64,000 nt of DNA, taken from an uncultured Desulfobacteraceae bacterium. Lineage in GTDB: Bacteria > Desulfobacterota > Desulfobacteria > Desulfobacterales > UBA5852. The DNA lies in NCBI GenBank assembly GCA_913060875.1, contig CAJXSL010000004.1, positions 1 through 64,000 on the forward strand. The letters run 5' to 3'. Positions 44,618 to 52,894 of this stretch are shown here, piece by piece. How positions within the stretch are numbered: position 1 is the first letter of the stretch; the number at the start of each line of letters is the position of its first letter. The notes beneath the pieces were generated by a model. The model was not told the origin of the DNA, did not search any database, and saw only the letters and a list, made by a program, of their open reading frames with translations. Position numbers and translations under genes: made by a program.

Positions 44618-45517
44618 CTAGCGCTGCGTATCCGTCATGCGACATGCTTCCATCGTGCCGGCCGGTCGGGAATCCCCGAACAGGAGAATCCGGATCCGCT
44701 CGCAGGTGTAACCGTAGACATTGCGAACAATGTTCGAAGGCCGCAGCATGCCCCCTTTCTTAAACATTTTCATGTTTTTAAAAGGTGTTGTCGTTTTCAG
44801 GGTGCCCACCTGCATGATGTCGTCCCCGCCCGGATAATCGAGACGGGCCAGGCAATAGTCATTGAAGAAGGCTTTGCGGTGCTTGGGAACGGTCTCGGTC
44901 GTATCCGGAAACAGGGTGGTGCCGTCGGCCATCAGGCGAAACCCTTTGATGATGAACCGCTCGTCCACCTCGGGGGGCACGCGCATCTGGAATTCTTTCA
45001 TATAGGAGGCCATCAGCATATCGCGGGCAGCCAGATGAAAGGGCTCCGGTTGGGCGTCGGGGTCGCCGTTGGGGAAAACGTTCTCGTAGGCTTCCGCCAC
45101 GGCCCCGAAAATTTTGGGCGTATGGGTCAAGCTCGTAATGTAGATCTTCCGGAAACCGGCATGATATTGCATGTAGAGGCTGGACCAATAGTAGAGCAGC
45201 TGCATCTGTCCTTTGTTGCCTTCGAGGGAATAGACCGACCCCAGATGGACCACCGGGCGTTTTTTGTACCGGCCGATATACACCATGGCGTTGAAGCAGC
45301 GGTCTTCACCATTCAGGGAACAAATCGTAATCAGTTTGTTGTTGAACGATTCCAGATCCGCAAAAAAACCATAATTGGGGCGTGATCCCAGGCGGGCCTC
45401 GGCAACGGCGACCAGCCGGCTCTGCAGCGCCTCCAGGGCCTCGGGTGTCATCCACTCGCCGGGACGGTGGTAGAGTTCGTAGGTAAAACTTTTAAACCGA
45501 AACTTCAGGTATTTCAT
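44618..45517 (-). CDS. unknown-function protein, possible divergent GNAT acyltransferase (paralogue 1)
   Basis: 299 aa, soluble, no signal. I know no named family for it. The middle part suggests the GNAT fold: a strand VVHLGSVYS (residues 89-97), then a Gly-containing turn LEGNKGQMQ (98-106) leading into a helix, as in the acyl-CoA pyrophosphate loop, then a strand KIYITSL (124-130) and a helix TPKIFGAVAEAYENVFP (133-149). The C-terminal part is basic (MKMFKKGG) with several Cys. Start at 45517 (MKYLKFRFKSFTYEL). A sigma-54-like promoter lies 90 bases upstream. A closely similar copy is encoded at 45861-46760. Confidence 0.7.
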   Translation of the reverse strand: MKYLKFRFKSFTYELYHRPGEWMTPEALEALQSRLVAVAEARLGSRPNYGFFADLESFNNKLITICSLNGEDRCFNAMVYIGRYKKRPVVHLGSVYSLEGNKGQMQLLYYWSSLYMQYHAGFRKIYITSLTHTPKIFGAVAEAYENVFPNGDPDAQPEPFHLAARDMLMASYMKEFQMRVPPEVDERFIIKGFRLMADGTTLFPDTTETVPKHRKAFFNDYCLARLDYPGGDDIMQVGTLKTTTPFKNMKMFKKGGMLRPSNIVRNVYGYTCERIRILLFGDSRPAGTMEACRMTDTQR

Positions 45518-45606
45518 GGTATGGCTCCCATCTACATAATTGAACGACAACCGGAATACGGCCTGCACTCGATTTGAGTCGCAGCACCTTTTCCCGGTCA
45601 TCTTTT

Positions 45607-45835: not shown

Positions 45836-45863
45836 CCGAATTTTTCATGAAATGTTCGGGTTA
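45836..45863 (-). repeat. isolated family 2 repeat end / palindrome at a stop codon
   Basis: CCCGAATTTTTCATGAAATGTTCGGG is a near-palindrome matching the right end of the 51942-52203 element. It includes the TAA stop (45861-45863) of the adjacent gene. Confidence 0.55.
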
Positions 45864-46760
45864 GCGCCGCAGAAAGGACGCAATGATATTATTCCAGCCG
45901 CAAGCGCGCTGGGGATACCCTTTCAGGATGCCGCCGGCGCATTCCCTTCCATACCCGACCACATTTCGGGCGATATTGGAAAGCCGCAGCATCCCTCCTT
46001 TCTTGAACAACCTCACGTTCTTGAAGAGCGTGGTCGGCTTCAGGATGCCCACCTGCATGATGTCGTCGCCGCCGGGATAATCGATGGTGTCCAGACAATG
46101 GCGATTGTACTGCGGTTTGCGATGTTTGGGTACACTTTCAGTCGTGTCGGGATAAAGGGTCGTTCCGTCTGCCATGAGACGAAAGCCCTTGATGATAAAC
46201 CGCTCGTCCACCTTGGGGGGAACGCGCATTCGGAATTCCTGCAGGTAGGTTTCCATCAGCATGTCGCGTATCGCCACGTGAAAGGGCTCCGGCCTGGCAT
46301 TGGCATCCCCGTTGGGAAAAACCTTTTCGTAGGCCTCGGCCACCGCGCCGAATATCTTGGGCGTGTGGGTCAGGCTGGTGATATAGACCCGCCGGAAGCG
46401 GGCGTGGTACAATACATACAGACAACTCCAGTAGTATAGCAGCTGCATCTCGCCCTTGTTGCCCTCGAGGGAATAGACCGCCCCCAGGTGAACCACCGGA
46501 CGTTTTTTGTACCGGCCGATATACGCCATGGCGTTGAAGCAGCGATCCTCCCCGTTGAGGGAACAAATCGTGACCAACTTATTGTTGAACGATTGCCGGT
46601 CCACGAAGAAGCCGAAATTCGGACGTGATCCCAGGCGCGCCTCGGCAACGGCGATCAGCCGATGCTGAAGGACCTCGAGGGCTTCAGGTGTCATCCACTC
46701 TCCGGGACGGTGGAATATTTCATAGGTATACCGTTTGAATCGGAACTTTACATAATGCAT
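45861..46760 (-). CDS. unknown-function protein, possible divergent GNAT acyltransferase (paralogue 2)
   Basis: 299 aa, the same length as paralogue 1. It is nearly collinear with it from residue 1 to about 265, including CSLNGEDRCFNAM, the VYSLEGNKG loop, YITSLTHTPKIFGAVAEAYE and VDERFIIKGFRLMADGTTL. The last 35 residues differ (GILKGYPQRACGWNNIIASFLRR). AAGGAGG lies before the ATG at 46760. No sigma-54 site is visible upstream, so the two copies are probably regulated differently. The strong terminator at 45691-45727 separates them. Confidence 0.7.
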   Translation of the reverse strand: MHYVKFRFKRYTYEIFHRPGEWMTPEALEVLQHRLIAVAEARLGSRPNFGFFVDRQSFNNKLVTICSLNGEDRCFNAMAYIGRYKKRPVVHLGAVYSLEGNKGEMQLLYYWSCLYVLYHARFRRVYITSLTHTPKIFGAVAEAYEKVFPNGDANARPEPFHVAIRDMLMETYLQEFRMRVPPKVDERFIIKGFRLMADGTTLYPDTTESVPKHRKPQYNRHCLDTIDYPGGDDIMQVGILKPTTLFKNVRLFKKGGMLRLSNIARNVVGYGRECAGGILKGYPQRACGWNNIIASFLRR

Positions 46761-46972
46761 GGTGCGCCTCCTTCGATCTTTGCCCTCTGCATGAAACATG
46801 GTTTCTTGGTTATACATGACGTTCCGTGCTGCAAAGACCACCAAAGGTAAGACCGAACCGGTAAATACCAAGGTTAAAATTATGTTACCGCTGCCAAAAC
46901 GGTTTCATCACCTGACCGCCCCGCGTCCGAGGGCCTGTGCGAGCTAAAACGCCAAGGTTCCTTCTTTTTCGG

Positions 46973-47019: not shown

Positions 47020-47078
47020 GATTCTATTATGTTCCATTTCATTTGGACCCTTTTACGACAGAACCACAGGAGGAACCA

Positions 47079-47525
47079 ATGGCCATCATCAAATGGAGTC
47101 CGGCACGCGAGATCGCCAGCCTTCAGCAGGGCATCAACCGCCTTTTCGAAGATGTTTTTACACAGCCGGGCAGTTACGACGCCGATACCATGGGTGCCTG
47201 GCGCCCCCCCGTGGATATCGTGGACACCCCCGAAGCCATTATAATTTTTTTCGAAATACCCGGTGTAGACAAAAACGAGGTCGATATCGAAGTCAAAGAC
47301 AATGTCCTGACGATCCAGGGCGAGCGGGTGGTGGACAGCAGCATCGGCAACGGCAGCTATTACCGCAGCGAACGGGTTTTCGGCAAATTCGGACGGTCCT
47401 TTGCCCTCCCGGCCATGATCCGCACGGAAAACATTTCCGCCGTTTTCAAAAATGGTGTTCTCAAAATTGCCATCCCCAAGCCCGAAGAGGAAAAACCCCG
47501 GCAGGTCAACATCAAAGTTGAATAG
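47079..47525 (+). CDS. Hsp20/alpha-crystallin small heat shock protein
   Basis: 148 aa. The alpha-crystallin domain (about residues 45-140) contains VDIVDTPEAIIIFFEIPGVDKNEVDIEVKDNVLTIQGE and ends with FKNGVLKIAIPK, the conserved G-x-L motif. The N terminus MAIIKWSPAREIASLQQGINRLFEDVF is typical. It holds unfolding proteins in the cytoplasm without ATP. The start at 47079 has AGGAGG five bases upstream; an earlier ATG at 47043 does not. Confidence 0.95.
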   Translation: MAIIKWSPAREIASLQQGINRLFEDVFTQPGSYDADTMGAWRPPVDIVDTPEAIIIFFEIPGVDKNEVDIEVKDNVLTIQGERVVDSSIGNGSYYRSERVFGKFGRSFALPAMIRTENISAVFKNGVLKIAIPKPEEEKPRQVNIKVE

Positions 47526-47639: not shown

Positions 47640-48935
47640 ATGAAAGCACGCGTCACCACCGGCATTCGGGATTTGGACAACCTTTTCGGCGGCCTTTTCG
47701 TCGGGGATAACGTCATCTGGTATGACGATGCCGGCAGCCTGGCCGATGTGTTCTACCTCAACCTGATCCGTTCCTCCCTCCAGGATGAGGCCCCCCTGAT
47801 TTATGTCAGTTTCGACCGCTCCCTGAAAAACCTGATCGAGAAACTGGGGCCCCTTGCCCAGTCACCGGCCCTGACCATTATCGATTGCTTCACCTATGGC
47901 AAAGGCAACGGAGCCGATATCTTTGCGGACTACCACAAGCAGATACCCGAAAACTGGCCCGGCACCCTGTTGACGGTCAAACAGCCCCATCACATGGAAG
48001 CGGTCGCGAAAACGTTCTATGAACACCATGGCCGCCTGGACGGAACCGTGCGCTTCATTTTCGAGAGCCTCACCGGCATGCAGGAACTCTGGGGCGGCGA
48101 AGAGCAGCTGGTCAATTTCTATGTGCGCACCTGCCCGCGCCTGTACGACCTCAACACCATCGCCTACTGGCTGATCGAAAAGGAGGCCCATTCCGGCAAA
48201 CTGCGGGCCCGGATCAACCAGATCGCCCAGGTGGTGGTGGACCTTGCGGTGCAGCGGGGCAAAACATCCCTGAGGATCATCAAAGCTGAAAACCGGACAC
48301 CGGACCGGCTCAACCAGCCCCTGCCCTATTTCAGCAAGGAGACATCCATCCGCTTCAGCCCGGAGGATCAATCCACCGGCAAGACCGATCTGGGAACACG
48401 CCTGCGGTCCCTGCGCACCCAGGCCCAGCTCTCCCAGACCGAACTGGCCAAACGCGTGGGGGTCACACCCAGCAGCATCTCGCAGATCGAAAGCGGATTG
48501 ATCTACCCGTCCTTACCCGCCCTCTTCCGTATGGCGGAAGTCTTTTCCGTAAACATGGGCACCTTCTTCCAGACGCCTGACGACCCGCCGCCCGTCGTTT
48601 TCCGGCAGACGGATATGCAGGCCGCCGCCCCCCCCGAAATGGCCGCTTCCGGCACTCACTACTGGCGCCTGCCGCAGATGGAAACCCGGGGCCGCCACAC
48701 CCCCGGCATCATCGAGATCCCGCCGCGAACAACCCTGTCCACGCATTTCTATCAGGGCAAAGGAGATGAAATCGGCTACCTCATCGAAGGGGAACTGGTG
48801 ATGACCTACCAGGGGAAATCCCATGATGTCGCTGCCGGGGATTTCGTCTTCTTTGACGACGGCTGGCCCTCCGCCTGGGAAAACCCCGGCGAGAAAACAG
48901 CCCGCCTCTTGTGGCTGGTAACCGCCCGCCCCTGA
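47640..48935 (+). CDS. KaiC/RadA-like pseudo-ATPase fused to XRE HTH and cupin
   Basis: 431 aa with three parts. Residues 1-225 resemble a KaiC/RadA-type RecA fold: TGIRDLDNLFGGLFVGDNVIWYDD aligns with the KaiC start, but the Walker A Lys-Ser/Thr is absent (DDAGSLADVF), while the Walker-B-like LTIIDCF remains. Residues about 250-310 are an XRE/HTH_3 domain (LRSLRTQAQLSQTELAKRVGVTPSSISQIESG). Residues about 340-425 are a cupin (HFYQGKGDEIGYLIEGELVMTY...GDFVFFDDGWPSAW). HTH-cupin regulators are common; the added KaiC-like domain is unusual. Probably a ligand-sensing repressor. It lies 114 bases after the Hsp20 gene. Confidence 0.88.
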   Translation: MKARVTTGIRDLDNLFGGLFVGDNVIWYDDAGSLADVFYLNLIRSSLQDEAPLIYVSFDRSLKNLIEKLGPLAQSPALTIIDCFTYGKGNGADIFADYHKQIPENWPGTLLTVKQPHHMEAVAKTFYEHHGRLDGTVRFIFESLTGMQELWGGEEQLVNFYVRTCPRLYDLNTIAYWLIEKEAHSGKLRARINQIAQVVVDLAVQRGKTSLRIIKAENRTPDRLNQPLPYFSKETSIRFSPEDQSTGKTDLGTRLRSLRTQAQLSQTELAKRVGVTPSSISQIESGLIYPSLPALFRMAEVFSVNMGTFFQTPDDPPPVVFRQTDMQAAAPPEMAASGTHYWRLPQMETRGRHTPGIIEIPPRTTLSTHFYQGKGDEIGYLIEGELVMTYQGKSHDVAAGDFVFFDDGWPSAWENPGEKTARLLWLVTARP

Positions 48936-49037: not shown

Positions 49038-50567
49038 TCAGGGGGTCAGGGTCGTCGTCATCCAGTGATCCGTGCGGGTATAGGCGGTCGGCGGTTCCCC
49101 CAGGCCATAGGCCGCCGGCGAACCGATCCCGCTGGAGTTGCTGCTGTATTCGCTGACCAGGATGCGCCAGTCGCCGGCCGGAAACGGCACCGGGTAAGAG
49201 GGATCGTCCCAATCCGGCCTGAGGTCGTAGTTAAACACGCATCCATTGGCGTTGCCGGCGTAATACTCCGAACTGACCAGGGTGCCGTGGGGATCATATA
49301 GGGACACGGTCACCCGTTTGCCGGACGCCAAGCCCGCGTTGGCAACATCGATGCGCACGTTCTTCGGTTCATTGATGCGGATCTTGTAGTAGTCGTTGAA
49401 ACCCACGTGGGCGCCACTGCTGTTGATGACGTTGCCGAGAAAGGCTCTGCCGGTGCTGAATGTCTTGGCCTGGGCAAAGCTGTCGTTGGCCTCGTAGGCA
49501 TCATTCAGCTGCCGTTTGGAAATGCGGACCCGGTAGGCGCTGCTTGTGGACCCGGTGGGCCGGACCTCGAAGTAGAAAGGCGTGCTGGGCGCCAGGGCGA
49601 TCCATACCTTGCGACGGCCCCCGTCCAGATAGGTCCGGGTGGGGCCGTAGAGGTAGAGTTCCGCACTGCCGGAGACCACCTCCACCTGCACCAGGGTGCC
49701 GGTGCCGGCAGCCAGGGCCGTCACCCGGCCGAAATCAGCGGCATCGTCGCCGCCCACTTCGCCGTTGACATAGCCGAAGTCCAGCCGGGCCGCGCCGCCG
49801 ATGGCATTGTTGCCGGGTTCGCTGTCGGCCATGGCGTGGTCGTCCACCGGGACAATCCGCTCATGCATAAGACCGGCGTACCGCGCAAGATTGCAGGGGA
49901 TGCGGTCCCGCGGGTCCCAACGCATGGGCACGGCCGTGGGGCCCGGTTGGGGCGTAATGCCGAGATAGATGGTGCCCCCGTTGGTCTTGCGAAGGCTCGC
50001 GGTGACATCGAACTGCCGGCCGCGGCCGAATGTCTGCAGGACCTTGCCCTTGCTGTCGTATACAACAACCCCCGGCACCGTGCCGGCAAAGGTCATCAAA
50101 AGCTTCTTGTTGCCGGACTGGAATCGGGGTTTAGGTTGTTCCCGGGTTCCGGCCGCCTGCCCGGGCCGCTGTAACGCCACGCTGCCCGATGCCATGACCC
50201 AGATATTCACCGCACTGCCTTTGGCGGCCGGCGTTTTGGCAGCGGGGCTCTGCTTGATCACCGTCCCCGGACGACCCTTGCCGGCCAGGCTTTGCTGGAC
50301 CATCCCGATCCGGAAACCGGCCTTCACCAACACTTGCTCGGCATCCGCCCTGGTCTTTCCGATCACCCCCGGCACCGTTACCTTGACTGCCAGGGCCCGG
50401 GTCGGATTCACCCGGGGTTGCATCGACGGGACGCTCCTGGCAGGGGCTTCCTGTAAATCGACGACCGGCACTTGTTTCGGCTGGCCAAACGCACTTGCGG
50501 AGAGGCTCAAGAGAAACACCAGCGTCAACCCAACCACCTTGTTCGGAACCATCTGAAAACGTGCCAT
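49038..50567 (-). CDS. secreted PASTA-domain protein with PPC-like beta-sandwich domains
   Basis: 509 aa with a signal peptide (cleavage after AFG, about residue 28). Residues about 60-125 form one PASTA domain (VPGVIGKTRADAEQVLVKAGFRIG...VIKQSPAAKTPAAKGSAVNIWV), the module that binds peptidoglycan fragments or beta-lactams. Residues 260-505 look like two prepeptidase-C-terminal (PPC) beta-sandwiches, with the usual N-D-x-F-x-x-A start (YEANDSFAQAKTF). No kinase, transpeptidase or protease domain is present. AAAGGAGG precedes the ATG. Likely a periplasmic or surface protein that binds cell wall; role unknown. Confidence 0.8.
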   Translation of the reverse strand: MARFQMVPNKVVGLTLVFLLSLSASAFGQPKQVPVVDLQEAPARSVPSMQPRVNPTRALAVKVTVPGVIGKTRADAEQVLVKAGFRIGMVQQSLAGKGRPGTVIKQSPAAKTPAAKGSAVNIWVMASGSVALQRPGQAAGTREQPKPRFQSGNKKLLMTFAGTVPGVVVYDSKGKVLQTFGRGRQFDVTASLRKTNGGTIYLGITPQPGPTAVPMRWDPRDRIPCNLARYAGLMHERIVPVDDHAMADSEPGNNAIGGAARLDFGYVNGEVGGDDAADFGRVTALAAGTGTLVQVEVVSGSAELYLYGPTRTYLDGGRRKVWIALAPSTPFYFEVRPTGSTSSAYRVRISKRQLNDAYEANDSFAQAKTFSTGRAFLGNVINSSGAHVGFNDYYKIRINEPKNVRIDVANAGLASGKRVTVSLYDPHGTLVSSEYYAGNANGCVFNYDLRPDWDDPSYPVPFPAGDWRILVSEYSSNSSGIGSPAAYGLGEPPTAYTRTDHWMTTTLTP

Positions 50568-52363: not shown

Positions 52364-52894
52364 TCAGGCAGGCGCCAAATGTCTTTCCAGGATGGCACTG
52401 ATCTCTCGGCGGCAATCCGGGATTGTGGCATAGCTGTAGCCGGCGATCAGGCGGCCCCGGTCGTAGACATCCACCGCAGGGGTGTGGGGCGGGTGGGCGA
52501 AGAGAACGTTGACGATGGTCTGGAAATCATTCCTCCGGCAGGCCAGGAGGATGCCGGCATCCGGGGCGTCCTCCGGCCGCTGCCCGGTGGGCTCCGTTTC
52601 GTTCGCCGGGGGACCGCCCATCATCTGCTGGCGTACGCTCGGGGAAATGAAAAGGGCGGTTGCATTGGAGGGCACATCGACTTCCGGATAGAGGGCCTCG
52701 AAGAAGGTTTTTTCTTCGGGGGTCAGCGTATGGAACGTGACCAGCCGGCCGGCCGTGAGGTGAGGCGCCATCTTTTCCAGAAGCTCGGCCAGCATCTGCT
52801 GCCAGCCGGCCACCAGGTCATTCGCCCCCGCACCGACCCGCTTATCGATGATATCCGCCACCCGGCGGTCGTTTTCCCCGCTTCGATCCGACAT
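52364..52894 (-). CDS. hypothetical soluble protein
   Basis: 176 aa, no signal peptide or membrane segment. I do not recognise a family. The N-terminal 50 residues look helical and charged (MSDRSGENDRRVADIIDKRVGAG...LEKMAPHL), and the C-terminal half has a compact alpha/beta look with AVDVYDRGRLIAGYSYATIPDCRREISAILERHL. GGGGGA precedes the ATG. It is the last gene of the long leftward envelope cluster, 51 bases after the MscS gene. Confidence 0.65.
   Translation of the reverse strand: MSDRSGENDRRVADIIDKRVGAGANDLVAGWQQMLAELLEKMAPHLTAGRLVTFHTLTPEEKTFFEALYPEVDVPSNATALFISPSVRQQMMGGPPANETEPTGQRPEDAPDAGILLACRRNDFQTIVNVLFAHPPHTPAVDVYDRGRLIAGYSYATIPDCRREISAILERHLAPA

Follow-up and report, generated by a model that had tools for sequence, protein, structure and literature searches.

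The stretch of DNA analysed here, 64,000 nucleotides long and referred to as the window, carries an open reading frame (ORF) at 47640-48935 on the forward strand that starts with ATG, has no internal stop and encodes a 431-residue protein. The product was classed as a regulator combining a pseudo-KaiC domain, an XRE-type helix-turn-helix (HTH) and a cupin on the basis of 110 aligned rows of like architecture, a set that includes the window protein, comprises 97 distinct sequences and has two members, L030 and L112, that are truncated where their contig stops. From the N-terminus, a domain of predicted RecA/KaiC fold without Walker A (residues 1-246; 47640-48377, +) is followed by the HTH (residues 250-312; 48387-48575, +) and a cupin barrel (residues 341-428; 48660-48923, +). 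Located directly upstream is an Hsp20-family gene (47043-47525, +; HSP20, E 1.6e-21), and directly convergent with the regulator is a 509-residue ORF (49038-50567, -) that by eye only has a secreted, PASTA-type look. Two tandem ORFs on the reverse strand (44618-45601 and 45861-46871; 327 and 336 residues) resemble paralogues by eye.

An earlier note had proposed a fusion to an XRE HTH and a cupin, both intact. The fusion was borne out by the 110 rows and by Pfam, which matched HTH_31 (residues 250-302, E 5.3e-14), HTH_3 (residues 255-306, E 7.5e-14; 52.0 bits against a cut-off of 23) and Cupin_2 (residues 357-426, E 3.8e-12; 46.2 bits against 27.2) in the window protein, while an XRE HTH and a cupin were each matched by 58 of 58 rows. 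The HTH was indeed intact and was the best-conserved part of the protein, with a mean pairwise column identity of 0.705. The cupin was so only in part, as it scored above the Cupin_2 cut-off but has Gly at position 373 in the window protein, where His occurs in 51 of 58 rows; H369 and E377 were found in 58/58. The best likeness in NCBIfam was to PuuR (E 2.1e-20 over residues 250-424; 73 bits against a cut-off of 211), and no NrpR, NtrC or GlnR-type domain was matched in the window protein by Pfam or NCBIfam at E <= 1. The regulator is single-copy in its own genome, where six other matches cover the HTH-cupin part or the HTH only; a 570-residue frame of the same genome (L003) was matched solely over the HTH-cupin part.

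An XRE HTH followed by a C-terminal cupin, with metabolic enzymes as neighbours, is the arrangement of the XRE-cupin regulators (ErfA, PauR and PsdR of Pseudomonas; PuuR; 1y9q). XRE regulators were described as the XRE domain alone, with peptidase S24 or with a cupin, and the XRE-cupin proteins of Pseudomonas as repressors that act locally on the metabolic genes next to them (PMC7901475). Unlike the two-domain proteins described there, all 110 aligned rows have an additional 246-residue pseudo-KaiC domain at the N-terminus.

This domain had been read in the earlier note as RecA-like with the layout of KaiC and RadA, and a predicted model and profile matches both upheld that reading. An AlphaFold2 model built without templates from a 58-sequence alignment (mean pLDDT 87.0, pTM 0.59) was aligned with VIA-align to PH0284 (2dr3_F; model residues 3-246, Z 24.3, rmsd 2.5 over 221 aligned) and to KaiC (7s65_B; model residues 1-241, Z 24.3, rmsd 2.2 over 205 aligned), and the top Foldseek rows for the model were HTH-cupin enzymes and regulators, and KaiC. 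A profile of the domain searched against the PDB matched a designed KaiC with E 2.3e-8 (the sum of two stretches that singly gave 0.012 and 0.041), natural KaiC (1u9i_A) with E 8.7e-5 and PH0284 with E 0.0096. The Pfam KaiC family (PF06745) was matched weakly and under its cut-off by the window protein (residues 5-69, E 0.053, 13.3 bits against a gathering score of 26.6). It was matched by 36 of 58 rows at E <= 1 (best 3.1e-8), and the gathering score was passed by fragments of some relatives, L111 (36.0 bits) and L097 (28.2 bits). As judged from the predicted model, residues 1-246 are of the RecA/KaiC fold, shared with KaiC and KaiC-like RecA ATPases (PF06745; PH0284, SSO2452). Unlike those ATPases, the domain lacks Walker A and the Glu pair, is single and is fused to DNA-binding and cupin domains.

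Two other family assignments were considered and set aside. DUF7090 (PF23365) gave weak matches only (E 0.038-0.19), with 11.8 bits against a cut-off of 27 in the window protein. PAXNEB (PF05625), the family of the Elongator subunit Elp4, was matched by 45 of 58 rows at E <= 1 (best 4.7e-7), extending in the scanned fragments over roughly the first 65 residues; the window protein was not among the matches at E <= 1, and the best of ten fragments, from L097, reached 28.0 bits against 28 over 67 residues. The match is partial, does not exceed the cut-off in any of the ten fragments, roughly equals the KaiC match in strength and is without an Elongator context, and membership of the Elp4 family is not claimed. 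What Elp4 and Elp456 offer is an earlier example of a RecA-like ring that is described as being without the Walker A consensus (PMC11050213, PMC5286394), though one of the two texts elsewhere refers to a conserved P-loop motif (PMC11050213).

A fixed motif, GDNVxWxDDaGSLA, replaced Walker A family-wide and was delimited from row conservation as residues 22-36 (GDNVIWYDDAGSLAD; 47703-47747, +). HMMER aligned the KaiC P-loop GTSGTGKT with it, over D29-D30-A31-G32-S33-L34-A35 and position 36, and aligned KaiC FEE with F58-D59-R60, so that the Glu pair after strand 2, which has a catalytic role in KaiC, is absent. The loss of the Walker A Lys that had been noted earlier was therefore confirmed and goes further, since the Lys is missing together with the Glu pair and the greater part of the P-loop. 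The proposal to check by alignment whether all members lack Walker A could be answered in the affirmative: the pattern GxxxxGK[ST] occurred in 0/110 rows (97 distinct; first 260 residues searched) and in 0/46 wider sequences with the domain (44 distinct, L119 and L120 being repeats of L133 and L136; first 300 residues searched). It is present in the proteins of that genome which by eye are RadA- and RecA-like.

Residues G22, D23, N24, W27, G32, S33, F58 and D59 were invariant in the 110 rows, and D29, L34, A35 and R60 were conserved in 109. The pseudo-KaiC domain as a whole was more conserved than the cupin (mean pairwise column identity 0.631 and 0.536, respectively). In RecA folds the ligand usually sits at and after the ends of the core strands, and sixteen of the 42 invariant columns of the domain fell within the 40 of 237 positions located there for five core strands (p 1.9e-4, for strand-end windows set after the data had been seen). 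On the strength of this conservation and of the position of the invariant columns, we infer that the former nucleotide pocket has been remodelled and is not decaying.

The regulator occurs in many bacteria of the sulfate-reducer type. The N-terminal domain was matched in 145 of 395 genomes of the phylum and the close form of the regulator in 54 of the 395 (a count of the matches listed, at 42-58% identity, with the window's own at 100% included). The 80 loci kept of 103 were titled deltaproteobacterial lineages or unspecific Proteobacteria, in a scan that detects close relatives only, and no match to the regulator was found on plasmids at E 1e-3. Fifty-seven of the 80 close relatives entered the alignment A1, from which rows with X, short rows and rows sharing 85% identity or more with a retained one were excluded. 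The earlier note had suggested that the architecture was new. In support of this, no description of a KaiC-XRE-cupin or KaiC-PPDK architecture was found in the open-licence PMC text searched, itself weak evidence of absence, and the parts are of known kinds while their combination is new; the architecture is not singular, given the 54 genomes with the close form.

The pseudo-KaiC domain occurred in three settings, an HTH-cupin regulator, a cupin-less regulator and a PPDK-type fusion. Twenty distant regulators were divided between ten of 431-442 or 534 residues and ten of 350-400 residues, and six of the latter that were scanned contained HTH_3 with no cupin match at E 0.001. In a sample of the remaining weak matches, which lie in frames of approximately 870-940 residues, twenty-four distinct proteins of about 860-910 residues bore the domain at the N-terminus (E 5e-21 to 1e-29). 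All five of these proteins scanned matched PPDK_N (E 1e-43 to 7e-55), with no HTH or cupin in those scans, and the PPDK fusions share the GDNVV motif and are without Walker A. They are located near GDH, GOGAT-type or NrpR genes, at L121 (1889-4567, +), L142 (3381-5987, -), L118 (102-2693, -) and twenty-one further loci. A tree of 56 rows (the window protein, eleven sequences chosen from the 80 close relatives and 44 wider sequences, excluding L119 and L120) placed the PPDK fusions on one side of a branch with support of 100/100 and the cupin-less regulators on another with 100/99; the program warned of long branches meeting, and L154/L155 (branch 2.54) are unreliably placed.

The neighbourhoods of these genes were examined in flanks of up to 6 kb, many contigs being shorter, with the repeats L119 and L120 excluded. 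Recurrent flanking clusters at the 80 regulator loci, each identified from one representative by Pfam, included a Glu_synthase FMN-domain protein, GAF-ANTAR, GOGAT-type, AmtB, GltD-like, GlnA, GDH and PII; five of the 80 regulators were missing from the main neighbour cluster, probably owing to an ORF-overlap rule, and their loci were still counted. Core nitrogen genes, labelled by one uniform rule in all sets, were present at 46 of the 80 regulator loci (83/683 ORFs; Fisher p 1.0e-6 by locus against controls), a count that is partly circular as the gene labels were chosen after the regulator neighbours had been seen. This applies less to the other two sets, in which core nitrogen genes were present at 14 of 20 distant regulator loci, two of them (L142 and L143) picked for holding both architectures (23/146 ORFs; p 3.3e-6), and at 20 of 20 PPDK-fusion loci (34/197 ORFs; p 1.5e-11); in all three Fisher tests the loci are related by descent. 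Twenty control stretches of 14 kb, taken at round-number positions with their content unseen from five single-contig genomes carrying the regulator, contained no core nitrogen gene (0/20 stretches, 0/249 ORFs). Some of the GDH matches were only 30-38% identical to the probes and three of these were the sole core gene at their locus (L135, L136 and L139), where Pfam identified them as full ELFV dehydrogenases; without these three, 17 of the 20 PPDK loci keep a core gene at 50% identity or more. In at least 29 of the 54 genomes a Glu_synthase match was located no more than 5 kb from the regulator, where approximately 0.5 would be expected from 2-6 matches per genome of about 4 Mb.

The nitrogen repressor NrpR (PF01995) is unrelated in sequence to the pseudo-KaiC regulator and differs in its domains, yet a gene with its NRD1_2 domain was found near the PPDK fusion at 4 of 24 loci (L121, L123, L134 and L142) and adjoining it at three of them; L124 was excluded from this count as its 112-residue frame has the winged-helix domain only. 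A single cluster at L142 (G160 contig 18) contains a PPDK fusion, NrpR, a GS-like gene, an ELFV dehydrogenase, a cupin-less pseudo-KaiC regulator and GOGAT-type genes. The GS-like FMN protein at L181 (7817-9451, -; cluster 1) has approximately 545 residues and an N-terminal Cys-rich motif, with no NCBIfam match at E 0.001 and a Pfam Glu_synthase match over about 130 residues only.

No match to the probe nitrogen genes was found within the 64-kb window. On the same contig outside it, a GDH gene at C4:68102-69481, 94% identical to the GDH of L038, is followed by a GS-like gene at C4:69819-71420 (93% identical; Glu_synthase, E 4.3e-14) and then by a GAF-ANTAR-like gene. Oriented as elsewhere, the pair lies approximately 19 kb downstream of the regulator, a distance at which the window alone would hide the nitrogen link. 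In L038, a 75%-identical relative (a contig apparently identical to G395:C4), the distance from the regulator is 1.3 kb to the start of GDH and 3.0 kb to that of the GS-like gene. In the three remaining genomes of the genus, GDH is the gene directly facing the regulator and the GS-like gene comes next. GDH is thus no more than 1.3 kb away from the regulator, and the GS-like gene no more than about 3 kb, in four of five genomes of the genus. The regulator-GDH gap of about 19 kb in the window genome, against about 1.3 kb in the 75%-identical relative, was read as a lineage-specific insertion or rearrangement. A small ORF of the intervening stretch (52410-52871) is common to the window genome and the 75%-identical relative, and the Hsp20 gene is also found upstream of the regulator in that relative (L038/L182; synteny by blastn to L182).

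The usual arrangement of the regulator and the GDH or GS-like gene is convergent, so they do not have a promoter in common. No common operator was found when upstream stretches, 86 of the 110 after removal of redundancy, were searched for gapped palindromes and k-mers. The palindrome TTTCnGAAA was present in 9 of the 86 (mean 1.45 and maximum 4 in 20 shuffles) and was rejected as an operator, as six of the nine exact copies start at position +4 of the gene and are coding. The true operators may lie elsewhere than in the upstream stretches searched.

The explanation we favour, with a probability of roughly 60%, is that the protein is a local transcription regulator of ammonium and glutamate assimilation in which the pseudo-KaiC domain serves as the main signal input. 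The regulator probably represents a type of nitrogen-status switch that has not been described before, a reading that derives from the recurrence of its gene beside genes of ammonium and glutamate metabolism. The P-loop would have been lost from a KaiC/RecA fold, probably before the family diversified, and the pocket rebuilt around invariant Asp, Trp, Ser, Thr and Lys residues. The domain would most likely bind a ligand reporting nitrogen or energy status, or a partner protein, and the signal could be passed on through a change in assembly that alters DNA binding; the assembly might be a ring like those of KaiC and Elp456. The XRE domain is expected to bind DNA and the cupin to act as a second, less conserved sensor or as a dimerisation unit. 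By analogy with the Pseudomonas XRE-cupin proteins the regulator is probably a repressor, and its likely targets would be glutamate dehydrogenase and the glutamate-synthase-like flavoenzyme, with GlnA, PII, AmtB or GOGAT in relatives.

It is conceivable, with some way to go before it could be called likely, that the N-terminal domain is only a platform for oligomerisation or for docking of a protein such as PII or a neighbouring enzyme, and that all small-molecule sensing falls to the cupin. KaiC relatives form rings. Elp456 is described as a ring as well, sensing in XRE-cupin regulators is predicted to lie with the cupin (PMC7901475), and six PII ORFs were found among the 80 loci. Against such a division of labour, the N-terminal domain is the more conserved of the two and its invariant residues cluster at strand ends, the conserved cupin His is lost in the window protein, the ten distant regulators of 350-400 residues are too short for a cupin, and the domain also occurs on the PPDK-type proteins, which in the five scanned showed neither HTH nor cupin.

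It is unlikely that the domain has kept the ability to bind, and perhaps to hydrolyse, ATP or a different nucleotide through an unusual loop and is an energy-charge sensor rather than a pseudo-ATPase. The loss of Walker A does not prove that ATP binding has been lost. An acidic residue is kept at what the fold suggests is the Walker B place (E142; Glu in 103/110 rows, Asp in 7/110), and S143 (110/110), K88 (109/110) and K215 (110/110) are conserved. Elp456 was reportedly presented in the title of its study as 'a hexameric RecA-like ATPase', though its subunits are described as without the Walker A consensus (PMC11050213). Two acidic residues, D29 and D30, at the would-be phosphate site and the replacement of the KaiC Glu pair by D59-R60 argue against nucleotide binding of this kind.

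Control of some other process, for example stress or central carbon metabolism, with the nitrogen neighbours reflecting inherited gene order, also appears improbable. A core nitrogen gene was absent from the flanking stretch examined at 34 of the 80 regulator loci and 6 of the 20 distant loci, which was counted against the nitrogen reading, and the Hsp20 gene directly upstream in the window and in L038/L182, together with the convergent orientation, would fit control of this sort. The nitrogen genes differ by lineage, however, being GS-like, GDH, GlnA-PII-AmtB or GOGAT, and the other architectures with the domain keep like company. The remaining alternative, an annotation artefact in which two genes are fused by a frameshift or the likeness to KaiC is due to chance, stands refuted despite the sub-threshold KaiC match of the window protein alone, as the architecture is kept as a single ORF in each of the 110 aligned rows (97 distinct), predicted fold and profiles tie the domain to KaiC and the L111 fragment exceeds the Pfam KaiC cut-off.

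Returning to the regulator as a nitrogen-status switch, a broader and more speculative extension, which we hold only tentatively, is that the KaiC domain without P-loop constitutes a new sensor module for nitrogen status, common to a transcription regulator and an enzyme of PPDK/PEP-synthase-like type. The rebuilt pocket would read one signal, such as glutamine, 2-oxoglutarate, ammonium or adenylates, by way of a change in ring assembly, and would so couple gene expression and carbon-skeleton metabolism in Desulfobacterota.

These observations suggest a role for a domain that has no name and is found repeatedly across the phylum. They also describe a RecA/KaiC fold in which loss of the P-loop was followed by strong constraint in two kinds of nitrogen-linked architecture. 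If the favoured explanation is true, a nitrogen-control regulator would be added to those of Desulfobacterota, and the family would provide a bacterial parallel to the Elp456 pseudo-RecA ring.
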